Below the pieces are notes generated by a model. It did no database searches. It was given only the letters and a program-made list of their open reading frames with translations, and had not been told where the DNA came from. Of a stretch of DNA of 64,000 bases, positions 9,094 through 64,000 are shown in pieces. The stretch spans positions 62,001 to 126,000 of the forward strand of contig NZ_JACJQY010000008.1 of assembly GCF_014696925.1 (NCBI RefSeq), given 5' to 3'. Each line of letters opens with the position of its first letter. Position 1 is the first letter of the stretch. The DNA comes from Phormidium tenue FACHB-1050 (GTDB lineage Bacteria; Cyanobacteriota; Cyanobacteriia; Pseudanabaenales; Pseudanabaenaceae). The translations under genes and the position numbers were made by a program.

Positions 9094-10146
9094 GTGCTAG
9101 CAAGGGTTTGGAGTGCAGCAATTTTAGGCATCGATGCCATCCAAGTGGGGGTAGAAGTCGATGTGTCGGGAGGATTACCAGGAATTACCTTAGTGGGATT
9201 ACCTGACACAGCAGTGCAAGAAAGTCGAGAACGGGTTAAAGCTGCGATCAAAAACGCGGGCTATGCTTTCCCCATGCGAAAGATCGTGATTAATCTTACT
9301 CCTGCCGATCTGCGTAAAGAAGGACCTATCTTTGATTTACCAATTAGCATAGGCATTTTGGCTGCCTCTGAACAGGTTGATCCACAATTATTAGGTGATC
9401 ACTTATTCTTGGGTGAAGTTTCTCTTGATGGTTCGCTGCGCCCTGTTTCAGGCGTATTACCGATCGCAGCGGCGGCTCAACGGCTAGGCATGATCGGGAT
9501 TATTGTCCCCAAGGAAAATGCTCAAGAAGCAGCTCTAGTCAAAGGCTTAGCGGTGTATGGCTTACAAAGTATTACCGAGGTAGGAGACTTCCTAGCGCAC
9601 CCCGAAAAATATCCACCAGTAGTTGCCAATCCTGATCTGAAATGGCATGAAAGCGAATTTAAGCTAGATCTTAAAGATGTAAAGGGACAGCAACATGCTC
9701 GTCGCGCTCTGGAAATCGCCGCCGCAGGTGGACATAATTTGATTTTTGTTGGTCCTCCTGGTTCAGGAAAAACCCTATTAGCAAGGCGGCTACCCAGCAT
9801 TTTGCCCAATATGAATTTTGACGAAGCCCTAGAAGTGACTAGGATTCATTCTGTGGCGGGCTTATTAAAGGGGAAAGGACTGGTAAGCGATCGCCCATTT
9901 CGTAGTCCCCATCATTCCGCTTCTGGTCCCTCACTAGTTGGTGGCGGCAGCTTTCCCCGCCCTGGAGAGATCACCTTGGCGACAAATGGGATCTTATTTC
10001 TAGACGAATTAACAGAGTTTAAGCGGGACGTATTAGAGTTTTTGCGCCAACCCTTAGAAGATGGCTTTGTAAGTATTTCACGCACTCGCCAATCGGTAAC
10101 TTTCCCTGCCCAATTTACACTTGTGAACTGTCATGCGACATACTGA
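9094..10146 (+). pseudogene. comM: ComM/YifB AAA+ ATPase interrupted by the prophage (5' part)
   Basis: ComM (Mg-chelatase-like AAA+ helicase) promotes branch migration during natural transformation. From GTG 9094 the frame shows the N-terminal [14 protein letters not shown] and [14 protein letters not shown] segments, the P-loop GPPGSGKT (from residue 220) and the Walker B ILFLDE (300-305). Intact family members have about 505 residues and continue after QFTLV with AMNPCPCG. Here the reading becomes NCHATY and stops, so about 150 C-terminal residues, including the zinc site, are missing. The break coincides with the start of phage sequence; the rest should lie beyond the window. Confidence 0.9.
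10118..10146. other. Predicted attL junction in comM
   Basis: Host-like comM coding ends within or just after CAATTTACACTTGTG, and the next bases no longer encode the conserved MNPCPCG motif. The crossover must be in this short stretch. The exact core cannot be fixed without attR. From 10147 to 10324 I see no gene. Confidence 0.65.
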
Positions 10147-11476: not shown

Positions 11477-11657
11477 GATATGTAGTTCCATGGCTAAATA
11501 CGTTTTAGACCAAATGGGGATATTAACCCCACTGACAAGGAACAAGGTCGCCCATCTTGAAGAAGTTGAGATAAAAAACAACTGTCTGCGATTCACTGAG
11601 AATTATCGAGATGTGCCAGTGGTATCGCTCCTTAAGATTATTGGGAGGCGATCATGA
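11424..11657 (+). CDS. Hypothetical early phage protein, 77 aa
   Basis: Starts at ATG 11424 (MSWLRFQMSQ), chosen because a GGAGGT Shine-Dalgarno lies four bases upstream; an upstream TTG in frame is not needed. The sequence shows no family I recognise. It overlaps the following replisome organiser by four bases (ATGA), so they are probably translationally coupled. Confidence 0.6.
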   Translation: MSWLRFQMSQTLKSQQLEICSSMAKYVLDQMGILTPLTRNKVAHLEEVEIKNNCLRFTENYRDVPVVSLLKIIGRRS

Positions 11658-12601
11658 GCATGACTTGGTTCAAACTGCACCACGAGATTGTTGATGATAT
11701 CAAAATCAGGCGATTCTCTTCACAAGAAAAATGGGCATGGATTGTACTGCTATGTCTTGCCAGCAAGTCTAGCGATCGCGGCACAGTCACCGCAGACAAT
11801 GACGACCTTGCAGACTACTGCGAGTTTAACTCTACTCAAGATTGGCTTTACTACCGAGACAAGCTAATTACCAAAGGGATGCTTGAGATTAGCGTCACAG
11901 GCTGCCTGAAAATTGTCCACTGGGACGATCGCCAATCCAAAAAACCTAGCGACGATCCAGCCCGAATTAAAGAGCGAGTTGCGAAGTCAAGAGCAAAAAA
12001 GAAAAGCGAGTCTGCAAGCCGATCTCAGGATGATGTAACGCGATACATAGCGTTACAAAGCGAAAGTAACGCAGATGTATCGCCACAGATAAGACTAGAT
12101 CAGATCAGATCAGAAGAGATCAGAAGAGATCAGATCAAACAAGATCCACACATAAATAATTCGTGTGTGCGTGTGGATTCGCAAATTTCAAATATTTCAA
12201 AATTTGAGCAGCGATGGAAACCTCAAGACATTGACTGCGGCAAATTGGCTCAAGACATTGATTTTAGAGAATTTGTGCTTAACCGTCTGCAAAAACTACC
12301 GTCTGCAAAAAAAGGCGAGTGGGAACCAGATATGGCAGATGCAGCAAAAAATATCTCTTCAGGGCAATGGGATTTGAAGCGCAGAGGCGAGATCAAGATC
12401 CTTTATGAGGAATACATCAAGTCGAAAAATTCAAAGGCTTCTAGCGCGAAAAACGAAGCGCAAAGCGATCGCCCCCGATTGCGAAAACCGAACCCGATGA
12501 CATGGACTGCTGAGCAGCACAACTGGACTTATGAACAATGGGAGAAATTTCTAAATGAGCAAAATTCAGGCAACGCCGAGGCAATCTACGCGAGTTACTG
12601 A
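11654..12601 (+). CDS. Phage replisome organiser (DnaD/DnaT-like N-terminus)
   Basis: The 315-residue product starts SMTWFKLHHEIVDDIKIRRF and continues KWAWIVLLCLASKSSDRG, the winged-helix N-terminal domain of phage replisome organisers that load the host helicase at the phage origin. A polar linker (about 120-175) with the repeated RLDQIRSEEIRRDQIK separates it from a C-terminal domain ending in MTWTAEQHNWTYEQWEKFL. The linker DNA is a GATC iteron cluster, a possible origin inside the gene as in lambda O. The neighbours are early genes in the same direction. Confidence 0.75.
   Translation: MSMTWFKLHHEIVDDIKIRRFSSQEKWAWIVLLCLASKSSDRGTVTADNDDLADYCEFNSTQDWLYYRDKLITKGMLEISVTGCLKIVHWDDRQSKKPSDDPARIKERVAKSRAKKKSESASRSQDDVTRYIALQSESNADVSPQIRLDQIRSEEIRRDQIKQDPHINNSCVRVDSQISNISKFEQRWKPQDIDCGKLAQDIDFREFVLNRLQKLPSAKKGEWEPDMADAAKNISSGQWDLKRRGEIKILYEEYIKSKNSKASSAKNEAQSDRPRLRKPNPMTWTAEQHNWTYEQWEKFLNEQNSGNAEAIYASY
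12098..12146 (+). repeat. GATC-rich iterons inside the replisome organiser gene
   Basis: Seven GATC tetramers lie in 49 bases, most as GATCAGA or AGAGATCA units. This is a direct-repeat array within the polar linker coding region. It is a candidate replication origin or methylation-sensitive control site. Confidence 0.55.
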
Positions 12602-30838: not shown

Positions 30839-30882
30839 ATTGGAAGAATTATTGCTGTAAATTCTGATCACAAAAATAGTGC

Positions 30883-30911
30883 TTGACAAATAGTATTTAA
30901 GCGCTTAATAT
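30883..30911 (+). promoter_or_regulatory. Promoter of the Csx3 operon
   Basis: Perfect TTGACA at 30883-30888, 17-base spacer, TAATAT at 30906-30911. The leader to 30992 contains the inverted repeat ATCAGGT/ACCTGAT (30919-30925 and 30953-30959), which could form a hairpin or bind a regulator. Confidence 0.7.
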
Positions 30912-30992
30912 TGTTTACATCAGGTCAAACACACCCGCAAACGCCGCTAAACCTGATAGCGGTACTCAGTTAAAGAGGGGCTGAGAAAAAAA

Positions 30993-31196
30993 ATGACTGC
31001 TCAAGAATTAGTTGATAAGCTGCAATTGAATGGCAGCTATGACGGAAATACTATTTTGGCGTTAAGTCAAAAGAAAATCGATCAACTTCTTGATCGATTC
31101 GATCCCGACGAAGACGCATTAATCCACATCTCTGCTGTTGGTTATTCAATCAATCATGGCAAGGGCGGCAGTCGTGGCATTAGCTACGAGTTTTGA
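30993..31196 (+). CDS. 67-residue hypothetical protein, first gene of the Csx3 operon
   Basis: Begins MTAQELVDKLQLNGSYDGNT and ends GGSRGISYEF; the first half is helical (SQKKIDQLLDRFDPDEDALI), the second has two short strands. No domain recognised. It is driven by the 30883 promoter and followed after nine bases by the next gene. Confidence 0.6.
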   Translation: MTAQELVDKLQLNGSYDGNTILALSQKKIDQLLDRFDPDEDALIHISAVGYSINHGKGGSRGISYEF

Positions 31197-31205
31197 GGTG
31201 AGTTT

Positions 31206-31547
31206 ATGACCAGACAAAGCAGAGAAGAATTGTGGGATGATGATGATTTTCAACCAATGAGATTACTGGGTAAAGGGTCAGAAGCCTATAAAGCCCCTCT
31301 TCCGCCTTCTCAGGCAACAATTGAGTTGAATAATCGCCTTGGATCTGAAGCTCAAAAACTTGACAGTATTCGTAGATTGCACCGTCAAGTCTTGACCGAT
31401 GAGTTCCCACACCTCAATCCATTAACTCACGTTTTGGACAAATACGACACTGTTGAAAAAATCCGAGAGTATTTAACAAAACACTCTGAGAAGATTGAGC
31501 AACTAAAAAAGCCTGTCCTAAAAAAGCCCACCCTAAAAAAACAATAA
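31206..31547 (+). CDS. 113-residue hypothetical protein, Lys-rich tail
   Basis: The polar N-terminus (REELWDDDDFQPMRLLGKGS) leads to a helical segment (LNNRLGSEAQKLDSIRRLHR) and a repeated KKPVLKKPTLKK tail that could bind RNA or DNA. Not recognised. The stop is one base before the Csx3 ATG, so the two are co-translated. Confidence 0.6.
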   Translation: MTRQSREELWDDDDFQPMRLLGKGSEAYKAPLPPSQATIELNNRLGSEAQKLDSIRRLHRQVLTDEFPHLNPLTHVLDKYDTVEKIREYLTKHSEKIEQLKKPVLKKPTLKKQ

Positions 31548-31548
31548 T

Positions 31549-31845
31549 ATGAATCCAATCATCATCACTGCAACAGAAAACGACAAATACACTCTGGTAG
31601 ATATTGCCATCGAAGGAGGTACTTGCGAACCCGCAGACATCAAGTCTCTCGCTATCCCCACCGTCAAAGGCAACAAAGGCGTAGTCCTCAATGGTCGCGC
31701 CCCGATATGGGTGTTCGGAACTTTGATCCACCACTTCCACGCTACCCATTGGGTAGCGACTAACGACCCGCGTCAAGGCGGTGCGATCGTGGTTGAGTCC
31801 CATAAATCAGGTGTAAGCGTTGGTGATATCATCCCTTTGCCCTAG
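31549..31845 (+). CDS. csx3: Csx3/Crn3-family protein (CRISPR ring nuclease family), stand-alone
   Basis: The 98-residue protein matches the Csx3 core in order: KYTLVDIAIEGG, KGVVLNGRAPIW (residues 43-54), HHFHATHWVATNDPR (61-75) and GGAIVVESH before VGDIIPLP. The His cluster at 61-64 and D73 of the DPR motif lie at the positions conserved in the family. Csx3 proteins cleave cyclic tetra-adenylate, the second messenger of type III CRISPR systems, and some accompany such systems in the host. No cas genes are here, so a phage-borne copy suggests an anti-CRISPR role. The length matches single-domain Csx3 and it lacks the AAA-type fusion. Confidence 0.85.
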   Translation: MNPIIITATENDKYTLVDIAIEGGTCEPADIKSLAIPTVKGNKGVVLNGRAPIWVFGTLIHHFHATHWVATNDPRQGGAIVVESHKSGVSVGDIIPLP

Positions 31846-32036
31846 CCCTACAGGAACGCCGTCCTGTAGGTAGACCACGAAGCAGCGATCGCTACGCTCA
31901 ATTAAATCTACGCCTACCAGTAGATTTAATTGAAAGATTAAAGGCGATCGCTCTGTCTGAAGGATTTGTTACTCAAATAGGAAAACATAAAGGAGAGCCA
32001 AATATTAGCGGATGGCTTATTAATAAATATCGATAG
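31827..32036 (+). pseudogene. Start-less ribbon-helix-helix remnant after Csx3
   Basis: An open frame overlaps the end of Csx3 and reads VGRPRSSDRYAQLNLRLPVD then LIERLKAIALSEG and SGWLINKYR, the GRP-x-LNLRLP-DLIERLK pattern of small RHH regulators. No ATG, GTG or TTG exists upstream in frame after the stop at 31824. It may be a decayed gene or be reached by frameshifting from Csx3. Two palindromes (about 31848-31870 and 31899-31932) lie within it. Confidence 0.45.
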
Positions 32037-34901: not shown

Positions 34902-34989
34902 TTTTATTTTTATGATATATTGATTTTCTGCGATCGCTTATCTAGGGTATAACCACGCCCGAACCTAGTTGATAGGCGATCGCATCCAT

Positions 34990-35062
34990 AGCGGTGTGGA
35001 GGAGTGGCTACCTCGTGGGTCTCATAATCCCAAGATCACTGGTTCGATCCCAGTCACCGCCA
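34990..35062 (+). tRNA. tRNA with CAT anticodon (Met or Ile2)
   Basis: A 73-base cloverleaf: acceptor 34990-34996 with 35055-35061 (six pairs; position 1-72 is A-C), D stem GAGG/CCTC, anticodon loop CTCATAA with CAT at 35022-35024, T arm ACTGG-TTCGATC-CCAGT and discriminator A at 35062; CCA is not encoded. The elongator-type T loop argues against initiator tRNA; lysidine-modified Ile is possible. It lies on the plus strand, antisense to the late operon, with its 3' end touching the gpG-like stop. Confidence 0.85.
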
Positions 35063-35551
35063 TTAAGTCTCACCCGTCAAAATATAATTCTCAATCGCCT
35101 TCTCAACCAACGTACTAAGCGAATCAGTGTGAGCTAAAAAGGGGCGCGTATTGTTGTTAAATCCTTGGGGTAAGTTTGTGCCAAATTCAATAAAATCGCT
35201 ACCAGCTTGAAAAAAATTTGCGGCGCTTCGCGGCGAAAATGTTGTAGCTGAACTAGATTGCAGTGAGTTTAGTAATGCGCCTGTATCTCGCAATATCTGA
35301 CCATTGCGCCGCCTTCCACCTCTTGCATTGAGAGTAGAATCTTTTAGCCTATCCCATGCAAAACCATTGGATGCAGTGCCGCCTGATTCCGTGCGAGGTG
35401 CATTTGCAAAAACGTCATCGGTGTAGCTGCTAATTACGAGCGCGACAAGGCTAGCTACAGGTTTTAGATCTGATGCGCGATCGCTTATGCCTTGCAATTC
35501 CGTTAAAATAATATCTATTGCTGAATAATCAATACTGATAAATCGCGACAT
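35063..35551 (-). CDS. Mu gpG-like virion morphogenesis protein
   Basis: The 162-residue protein shows FAWDRLKDSTLNARGGRRRN then GQILRDTGALLNSLQ and DFIEFGTNLPQGFNNNTRPF, the typical pattern of the phage virion morphogenesis family (Mu gpG / HK97 gp10 type), needed for head-tail joining. It lies with the MuF-like protein upstream, as in Mu-type head modules. Confidence 0.75.
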   Translation of the reverse strand: MSRFISIDYSAIDIILTELQGISDRASDLKPVASLVALVISSYTDDVFANAPRTESGGTASNGFAWDRLKDSTLNARGGRRRNGQILRDTGALLNSLQSSSATTFSPRSAANFFQAGSDFIEFGTNLPQGFNNNTRPFLAHTDSLSTLVEKAIENYILTGET

Positions 35552-62633: not shown

Positions 62634-62760
62634 TCCACAAACTTTAAATCTTTTAGAACTGCCATATGTAGATCTAAGATCAAAAAGAATAAAGCCGCTG
62701 CTATTTAAATCTTTAACTCTATCGATACCACCTTGCGATCGCGTACAACAATCTTTTTAA
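62626..62760 (+). CDS. 44-residue basic peptide overlapping the recombinase end
   Basis: ATG 62626 overlaps the stop of the previous gene (ATGA) and the frame ends inside the 3' end of the converging recombinase gene. The product (MIDPQTLNLLELPYVDLRSK) is short and basic. Support is modest; the start overlap is the main evidence. Confidence 0.35.
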   Translation: MIDPQTLNLLELPYVDLRSKRIKPLLFKSLTLSIPPCDRVQQSF

Positions 62761-64000
62761 TCAAAGACTTGTACAGCGATCGCTTTTCTTCATTGTCTAG
62801 AGTTGCAAAGAAATCTGGATCGCTAAACGCCTCAATAAGTAGCGATCGCAATTCTAAGTTAATGCCTTGGTCTACATCATGCGATCGCTCTAAGTTTGCA
62901 ATTTCATCCTGCAACTTTGCGATCGCATCTGCGAGCATAGGATTGTTCATTGATTCAAGTATAGTTATCTGTCCACGCAATTCTTTAATTTTGGGATTTT
63001 CAACTTTTTGGTCATCAGCTTCATAGATAGTAGCGATCGCCCCTGCCTTTTCAGTCAATGCTTGAATAGCGATCGCCTCAACAATTTCAATTTTGTAAGT
63101 CCCCCGTTGACTGCATGACTTGCCAGCGGGTTTTTTAGACCGCGTTCGGCAGTAAAAAGATCTAATTCTGCGAAATTCAGTTTTTATACCACCCGATGGT
63201 TTACTCATCAGATCGCAACTCACCCCGCACTCACCACAAAATACCAAGCCTGATAATGGGTTTTGAAATGCTTTCCTGTTTTTGCCCCAAATTCTAGTAT
63301 TTTCTGTCAGTATTTCAGCGATCGCTCTTTGCTCAGCTTCAGTCATTAAAGCTTGGTCCACATGCGTACCGTAAATAATTTGATTACCTTGCGGCAAATG
63401 TGCGGGCTTAGGATTGCGTTTATCGTAGGGAGTATTACCAATTAGCACGGGATTTAATAGCCACTGTCGCAAGCCCGACACACTAAACCTCTTGCCATAT
63501 TTCTCGTAGATTAATCGCGTCACAGGCGGCAAAGTTTTTAATTCTAGGTATAAGGCGATCGCCTCCCTTGCGATCGCCGCCTCATCAGGATTTAAAACAT
63601 ATTCTTGGTTTACTCGCTTATATCCGTAGGGAGTCCGAGGGTTAGCTTTGTGCAAGTCCCTCAAATTCTGGTAGCCTGCACGCACACGCATTGAGGTTTT
63701 TCTGGATTCATATTCTGCCTGCAACCCTTTTTGGCGCGATTCATACCACTCATTAGGATCGATAAAGTTGATGTAGCGATCGCTGTCCAACTCATAGATC
63801 AGCACGCCAGTTTCTTCCAGAGTCTGCAAAAACTTAGCGGATGTTGTTGACTCACGGCTCAATCGGTCAAGAGCCGTGACAGTGATTTGCTTAACTTTAC
63901 GATTCTTAACTAAGTCACAGATGCGTGAAAAATCTTCTCGCTTGGCATCACCCCACGATCGCCCCGATGCGACATCCTGATATATCTCAGTGCAGCCAGC
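62705..64000 (-). CDS. Large serine recombinase, XisF-like (N-terminus beyond the window)
   Basis: The frame is open to the window edge. It shows the resolvase domain (IYQDVASGRSWGDAKREDFS, ITVTALDRLSRESTTSAKFL), then a recombinase domain (NPRTPYGYKRV, VSGLRQWLLNPVLIGNTPYD), a zinc ribbon (VFCGECGVSCDLMSKPSGG with FYCRTRSKKPAGKSC), a coiled coil and a C-terminal segment. The catalytic serine motif lies outside the window. It resembles XisF, the fdxN-element recombinase of heterocystous cyanobacteria, and is the probable integrase of this element. Confidence 0.9.
   Translation of the reverse strand, partial: AGCTEIYQDVASGRSWGDAKREDFSRICDLVKNRKVKQITVTALDRLSRESTTSAKFLQTLEETGVLIYELDSDRYINFIDPNEWYESRQKGLQAEYESRKTSMRVRAGYQNLRDLHKANPRTPYGYKRVNQEYVLNPDEAAIAREAIALYLELKTLPPVTRLIYEKYGKRFSVSGLRQWLLNPVLIGNTPYDKRNPKPAHLPQGNQIIYGTHVDQALMTEAEQRAIAEILTENTRIWGKNRKAFQNPLSGLVFCGECGVSCDLMSKPSGGIKTEFRRIRSFYCRTRSKKPAGKSCSQRGTYKIEIVEAIAIQALTEKAGAIATIYEADDQKVENPKIKELRGQITILESMNNPMLADAIAKLQDEIANLERSHDVDQGINLELRSLLIEAFSDPDFFATLDNEEKRSLYKSLIKKIVVRDRKVVSIELKI

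Follow-up and report, generated by a model that had tools for sequence, protein, structure and literature searches.

A prophage-borne Csx3 with a candidate frameshift-encoded tail that may repress its own operon in a temperate cyanophage

Csx3 (Crn3) has been described as an enzyme of host type III CRISPR loci (PMC7371418), and its occurrence in a cyanobacterial prophage raises the question of what it does there and whether it acts alone. We addressed this question in a 64,000-nt stretch of the Phormidium tenue FACHB-1050 genome (hereafter the window), for which a sequence-only reading had proposed a phage-borne, stand-alone Csx3 with a complete core. The GRAPIW, HHFH and DPR segments of that core are indeed all present in the ATG-initiated reading frame (Table 1). 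The family search that had been suggested gave clear matches to Pfam Cas_csx3 (PF09620; E = 1.1e-26, 92.9 bits against a cut-off of 21), NCBIfam TIGR02579 (E = 2.8e-24, 85.2 bits against 55.4) and the PADLOC Csx3 profile (E = 1.5e-26); a comparison with PHROGs returned no match. Searching the Archaeoglobus fulgidus Csx3 (AfCsx3) structures with phmmer gave a best E of 3.3e-15, and the AlphaFold model of the 98-residue protein (pLDDT 95.5) had AfCsx3 chains, in forms with and without cA4, as its top 13 Foldseek matches (best E = 2.5e-10, query TM 0.86–0.90). Mutation has shown that H60, D69, R71 and H80 of AfCsx3, a dimer that pairs into tetramers, matter for its function, and the Methanosarcina mazei Csx3 partly relieved cA4-type type III immunity in Escherichia coli (PMC7371418). 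All four residues are kept in alignment to AfCsx3, as H64, D73, R75 and H85, and they were also intact when the window protein was aligned to 13 other Csx3 sequences, so that the loss of the conserved His and Asp, named beforehand as a ground for rejecting the assignment, was not seen. By family, aligned residues and predicted fold, the product is a Csx3/Crn3. Because of its family membership and intact residues, it most likely destroys cA4 and would thereby blunt the type III CRISPR response of the host.

Table 1. Positions of the features discussed in the text (numbering of the window)
Feature	Position	Strand	Basis
comM/yifB-like Mg-chelatase gene, 5' part; the prophage appears to interrupt the gene	9094..10146	+	Pfam Mg_chelatase and ChlI
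Promoter with palindromic operator candidate: TTGACA, 17-nt spacer containing TTTAAGCGCTTAA, TAATAT	30883..30911	+	10 of 12 consensus matches
First gene of the operon after the promoter (67 aa), no assigned function	30993..31196	+	weak PHROG 19997 (E = 0.001)
Second gene behind the promoter, 113 aa, no assigned function	31206..31547	+	no match over cut-off
csx3/crn3, predicted cA4 ring nuclease (short form), 98 aa	31549..31845	+	profiles, AfCsx3 alignment, model, fold matches
Candidate slippery heptamer C_CCT_TTG (in phase), separated from the csx3 stop by one codon	31833..31839	+	same heptamer in L003
-1-frame extension with a ribbon-helix-helix-like domain	31839..32036	+	no start codon, dN/dS, recurrence after other genes
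Predicted RNA hairpin CCTACAGG / CCTGTAGG, 7 nt past the heptamer, 1 nt past the stop	31847..31870	+	stem common to 5 of 6 contigs
Large serine recombinase, right end of the prophage	62705..63862	-	Pfam Recombinase and Zn_ribbon_recom

The description of this Csx3 as stand-alone is not supported, because a conserved -1-frame extension follows the gene and continues to position 32036. The window and a 15.7-kb IMG/VR contig whose Csx3 is 80% identical (L003) share 497 bp of DNA that begin at the csx3 start and run on for 186 nt after the stop codon, where both have an open -1 frame (LQERRPVGRPRS.DRYAQLNLRLP..., 82% identical). The window's open -1 frame (31827–32036) begins only 16 nt before the csx3 stop. 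Searching IMG/VR with the tail alone yielded five contigs, own included, which a repeat search recovered again, as did a hairpin DNA pattern; a sixth came from scans that used the phosphatase gene described below and a wider alignment. Divergent members would be missed, since the IMG/VR scan relies on short peptide patterns. The module, as we call the tail with its upstream signal, follows csx3 in the window and L003, a gene for a PNK3P-type phosphatase in L039, L041 and L075, and a gene for an 80-residue protein without known function in L040. The six contigs thus stand for three host genes and two clearly separate tail versions: the L075 tail is only 50–56% identical to the others and its phosphatase 72% identical to that of L039 and L041, which are close relatives (about 95–98% in DNA). 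In five contigs the similarity begins at about the stop codon, one nucleotide ahead of the common stem. Viral status of all module contigs is the IMG/VR label, which is supported by DnaB and a phage-replisome match in L003 and by phage-like ORFs in L064 and L065; one protein each of L065 and L076 compared with PHROGs gave no match. The phosphatases themselves (L041:5480–6189, Pfam PNK3P E = 2.7e-7, and L075:3001–3695) are phage proteins whose genes carry the module with T_TTT_TTA, and Csx3 and the PNK3P phosphatase are two phosphoester enzymes under one kind of module.

Between the window and L003, 16 of 30 substitutions in the tail fall on third positions of the -1 frame, and dN/dS is 0.18 in this frame versus 0.61 and 2.3 in the other two. 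Among the five contigs the ratio for the tail is 0.08–0.21, and against L075 it is 0.16–0.34 (ungapped block). Judged by these substitution patterns, the tail is under purifying selection as a protein in the -1 frame.

All six contigs present an in-phase X_XXY_YYZ heptamer (C_CCT_TTG, T_TTT_TTA or A_AAA_AAG) with one codon between it and the stop codon, and a hairpin follows. Among ORFs of 120 residues or more from these loci, with spurious and overlapping ORFs and the module genes included, such heptamers occupy 472 of 78,619 in-phase positions (0.6%). Exactly one codon before the stop they occur in 9 of 303 ORFs, four of which are genes with the module or with the L044 tail described below, leaving 5 of 299 (1.7%). 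The chance of finding a heptamer at this spot in three independent genes is about 2e-7 to 5e-6, for a spot that was noticed post hoc. We also inspected 42 Csx3 loci (the own copy counted twice, L003, 29 in other genomes and 10 further viral ones, the stop of the fusion being taken in AAA-fused loci): the heptamer stands at the fixed spot in L001–L003 and L044 only, and further upstream in L030, L045 and L046. Five of the six module contigs come from metagenome assemblies, by their IMG names; indel errors are unlikely because the geometry is identical in independent assemblies.

The spacing between heptamer and stem is 7 nt in the window, 6 nt in the four contigs in which the next pair forms, and 5 nt in L075; in -1 frameshifting, 5–9 nt separate heptamer and structure (PMC5009743). 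The best E. coli heptamers are C_CC.A_AA.G, G_GG.A_AA.G and A_AA.A_AA.G, and motifs in which X and Z are both pyrimidines or both purines are generally more shift-prone (PMC4066793). C_CCT_TTG is outside these named top heptamers and fits the shift-prone rule only partly, because UUG is a mixed codon; cyanobacterial ribosomes may differ. The hairpins of the window, L003, L063, L064 and L065 have predicted energies of -15.2 to -20 kcal/mol (z = -2.2 to -4.8), and L075 has a different stem, starting at the last base of the stop codon, that is not stronger than its shuffles (z = -0.58). Folding 98 nt gave z = -5.1 for the window and -1.45 for L003. The single variable stem pair is A-U in two contigs, G-C in two and unpaired in the window, and the resulting covariation score was reached by 44 of 500 shuffles; synonymous changes affect 2 of 8 hairpin codons versus 17 of 36 others, with no clear difference. 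The hairpin was absent from the output of a terminator scan, and a role as transcription terminator is not supported. Transcriptional slippage, as a substitute for ribosomal frameshifting, could suit the T6 and A6 tracts and hardly C_CCT_TTG. Taken as a whole, the signal makes -1 ribosomal frameshifting at the end of csx3 very probable, and the predicted frameshifted product would have 97 + 65 = 162 residues versus 98 in the short form.

In the alternative that survives best, a small gene of its own encodes the RHH-like extension, and ribosomes that have terminated on csx3 reinitiate at an unusual codon to translate it; an Aca-like repressor function could then be the same. A separate repressor gene is the usual arrangement in anti-CRISPR operons, a TTG in the tail frame of L041 overlaps the stop codon and might be an ordinary start, and in L043 a -1-frame ORF with a possible GTG start follows csx3 with no heptamer. 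However, the open frame of the window contains no ATG, GTG or TTG, and in L003, L039, L040 and L075 the first such codon comes 19–23 codons past the stop, within the conserved stretch. Reinitiation would also leave the in-phase heptamer at one fixed place in all six contigs unexplained, and we consider it unlikely.

We then asked what the tail might be. Against the Pfam RHH families it stays below the cut-off (RHH_5, E = 0.014, 15.5 bits against 26), and its AlphaFold model is of low confidence (pLDDT 57.6), with helices at 25–37 and 53–61 only and no strand called. A profile of two tails, run on 386 cyanobacterial genomes, recovered its own copy strongly along with eight weak matches (best E = 2.8e-4), three of which were inspected and resemble, on visual reading, RHH domains that are small or N-terminal. 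The tail reads like an RHH domain with a basic GRPR segment ahead of it; a DNA-binding RHH tail is, on this resemblance, likely. Ribbon-helix-helix proteins act as dimers, and given that AfCsx3 dimers pair into tetramers, a Csx3-RHH fusion would be structurally sensible. The window tail had no match in INPHARED or PLSDB and the L075 tail none in INPHARED; two scans of genome contigs found none, and among the 38 genomes of the family only the tail's own genome has it. With INPHARED and PLSDB empty and one strong match, its own, in the 386 cyanobacterial genomes, the tail does not appear to be a common phage, plasmid or host gene.

If the tail binds DNA, its target may lie in the promoter of the operon. 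The two small genes between this promoter and csx3 had been put forward as possible co-factors. Neither the 67-aa gene (no Pfam, NCBIfam or PADLOC match over cut-off) nor the 113-aa gene (none in Pfam, NCBIfam, PHROGs or PADLOC) has a DNA match in L003, which has other ORFs upstream of csx3. A co-factor role is not supported, because the window and L003 share in DNA only a 56-bp promoter stretch, the 497 bp of csx3 plus extension and one 39-bp match elsewhere; tblastx added one more match, at protein level, at window positions 11650–12004. The sequence TTGACA-N6/7-(A/T)TTAAGCG(C/T)TTAATAT lies upstream of the module gene on the same strand in the window, L075, L063, L064 and L065, twice in L065, and the L003 form has one extra T, which brings the promoter-palindrome to six of six contigs. 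The genes directly behind it differ between contigs. Among 386 cyanobacterial genomes the pattern, which the L003 form would not match, occurs in one and once, as the window's own copy. The palindrome was not among the repeats listed by a general repeat search at its settings.

L065 and L063 also have, ahead of another gene, a similar promoter region that lacks the palindrome; the one at L065:5511–5640 is 88% identical to window positions 30867–30995 and has a different spacer, perhaps a second operator specificity. These phages are partly related: the window has further DNA in common with L064, L065, L063 and L076 (879 bp with L076, for instance) and the protein-level match with L003, and shared ancestry could account for some of the likeness of the promoters; between the window and L003 that likeness is not explained by common descent at the DNA level. 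The combination of a constant promoter-palindrome and a constant tail with variable genes between them suggests that the tail recognises the palindrome, and we lean towards autorepression of this promoter by the tail.

That csx3 is phage-borne was borne out by its surroundings, in which a tape measure protein, portal, major head protein, terminase and serine recombinase are encoded, and an IMG/VR viral contig (L002) is the same prophage, identical over 20,294 bases. A frame resembling the continuation of the comM/yifB-like gene lies at about position 64100, just right of the window (judged by eye), and the prophage appears to interrupt this gene with the recombinase gene at its right junction. 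A tRNA-Met (cat) gene (34989–35063) sits among the late genes inside the prophage. The octamer GCGATCGC (HIP1, typical of cyanobacteria) occurs 143 times in the 64 kb versus about one expected, which points to a cyanobacterial host.

The genome that holds the window (5.6 Mb, 89 contigs) has one Csx3 and Cas1 at two loci, and a search of it for RAMPs, used here as a proxy for type III systems, gave no match. A resident type III system for csx3 to serve was thus not found, and the idea that this Csx3 is part of one is not supported. In the genus, RAMPs are present in 13 of 26 genomes, own genome included, and Csx3 matches in nine, again with own; the other eight all carry RAMPs, and the prophage copy is therefore the only Csx3 of the set in a RAMP-free genome. 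The Csx3 frames of these eight genomes exceed 300 residues, a length that suggests the AAA-fused type, and in one of them (G022) the match has an E of only 7.6e-4. Because all eight carry RAMPs, hosts with cA4-type signalling are plausible targets of the prophage protein.

It could be argued that Csx3 is no anti-CRISPR protein here and serves the lysogen or the phage otherwise, for example by acting on other RNA or nucleotide signals. A lysogen with Cas1 and without a RAMP match would suit this, and the module is not tied to CRISPR, since it is also attached to the PNK3P-like phosphatase and the 80-residue protein. Such a role sits poorly, however, with the retention of all four functional residues of the cA4 enzyme and with the RAMPs in every other Csx3-positive genome of the genus. 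We regard it as distinctly unlikely and, from family, residues and genomic context, an anti-type-III function as probable.

The question remained how common Csx3 is in viruses. Searching 50,697 phage records with two Csx3 proteins by tblastn found nothing, and a degenerate pattern scan of IMG/VR found Csx3 in 12 contigs, own prophage included. One of them, L043, has a Csx3 64% identical to the window's and a tape-measure gene just upstream. For eight of the ten further contigs (L044–L049, L051 and L052) one protein each was compared with PHROGs: tape-measure or terminase families were matched in L044, L047 and L049, an integrase in L045, and nucleotide metabolism or helicase families in L046, L048 and L052; for L051 no family was matched. 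L043, L044, L045, L050 and L051 were left out of the six module contigs. L043 (3477–3528 and 3846–4055) has inverted repeats of its own in the promoter region and a -1-frame ORF past the csx3 stop, without a heptamer, and L051 likewise has a heptamer-free -1-frame ORF. In L045, C_CCA_AAA stands three codons before the stop and makes a weak case, since upstream the -1 frame stays open for 256 nt as well.

L044:9473–10461 encodes a viral protein in which a part weakly matching NUDIX (E = 0.0056) is fused to Csx3, and its gene has C_CCA_AAG one codon before the stop and a basic -1-frame extension of 46 residues (GRPSSGQGQTRYIRASL...), possibly a second, different frameshift tail on Csx3. L050 is a near-copy of L044 (98.4% identical over 17.9 kb), identical in the tail region and with a broken csx3 frame. 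The L044 tail had no match in INPHARED or in 386 cyanobacterial genomes (a scan run without a positive control).

The least probable of the alternatives, a plain phage Csx3 that removes cA4 and is followed by irrelevant or decayed sequence, fits the complete, family-typical protein and the eight of ten further viral loci without a heptamer at the fixed place (L043, L045–L049, L051 and L052; the broken csx3 frame puts L050 outside this judgement), five of which (L046–L049 and L052) also have no long -1-frame reading past the stop (2–15 residues), but it is improbable in view of a tail that is conserved in frame and recurs after unrelated genes.

Putting these observations together, we regard it as probable, from sequence comparison, that a temperate cyanophage carries this locus as an accessory operon in which a Csx3 ring nuclease is made in a short and a frameshifted form and the tail of the latter represses the operon. 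The last gene of this operon would provide Csx3 with all known functional residues, acting against the cA4 signalling of hosts with type III systems. Some ribosomes would slip back one base at C_CCT_TTG, aided by the downstream hairpin, read past the csx3 stop and add the 65-residue tail, giving a Csx3-RHH protein. The RHH-type tail would then bind the palindrome between the -35 and -10 hexamers of its own promoter and repress the operon, so that the amount of repressor would follow that of Csx3 in a fixed proportion and no second start site would be needed. The promoter and the tail would be matched to each other and remain constant, with varying genes enclosed between them. The simplest account is that the operon represses itself in the manner of anti-CRISPR operons under Aca control, except that frameshifting would append the repressor to the cargo.

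A wider form of this model is unlikely on present grounds. It supposes a plug-in platform in which the fixed promoter-operator and the frameshift tail bracket exchangeable anti-defence cargo and the cargo-repressor fusion senses the state of its cargo, the long form of Csx3 being a cA4-responsive repressor. In the Csx3 version, cA4 from an attacked host would clamp Csx3 into a head-to-tail assembly and free the operator, raising Csx3 output exactly when type III immunity fires.

A Crn3 that keeps its functional residues, carried by a prophage and by other viral contigs, would bring a further fold into the set of viral ring nucleases. Its apparent mode of expression stands out more, with a candidate frameshift tail and a matching promoter that both recur around unrelated phage genes; a literature search of open-licence PMC papers found neither such a module nor a report of phage Crn3, and we are not aware of a transplantable -1 module, paired with its operator, that unrelated phage genes have in common. 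If the proposal is true, promoter and tail could serve as bait for further anti-defence cargo in cyanophages, and gene callers that halt at the zero-frame stop would miss such tails.

Compared with known systems, the window protein has the same fold and the same four functional residues as the Crn3/Csx3 enzymes AF_1864 of A. fulgidus and Csx3 of M. mazei (36–38% identity in structural alignment). Crn3 has been placed in type III loci of euryarchaea and cyanobacteria (PMC7371418), whereas the window copy lies in a prophage. Known Crn3 activity is Mn-dependent cleavage of cA4 by a tetramer assembled head to tail. A survey of 28,114 phage genomes with HMMs that included Crn3 reported Crn2 in 36 genomes, Csx20 in four and Csx16 in two, and the available text of that survey does not name a phage Crn3 (PMC12409355). 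AcrIII-1 (Crn2/DUF1874) and other viral ring nucleases are likewise virus-borne and expected to degrade cA4, but differ in fold from the window Csx3; AAA-fused forms of Csx3 are also known (PMC12409355), whereas the window protein has no AAA domain and is followed by the -1-frame RHH-like extension. The candidate frameshift signal resembles those of dnaX and IS elements, which likewise combine X_XXY_YYZ with a 3' stem-loop at a spacing of 5–9 nt (PMC5009743, PMC4066793). The closest regulatory parallels are the Aca autorepressors (Aca2, PMC8434428; Aca8, PMC11065993), in which a repressor is likewise encoded with an anti-defence gene behind a conserved promoter region. An inverted repeat of the Aca type in the operon's own promoter has its counterpart here in TTTAAGCGCTTAA between the hexamers. 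Aca2 is a separate gene, as Aca repressors are, whereas the putative repressor described here would be a C-terminal frameshift extension that in the window has no start codon of its own and that is carried by different cargo proteins.
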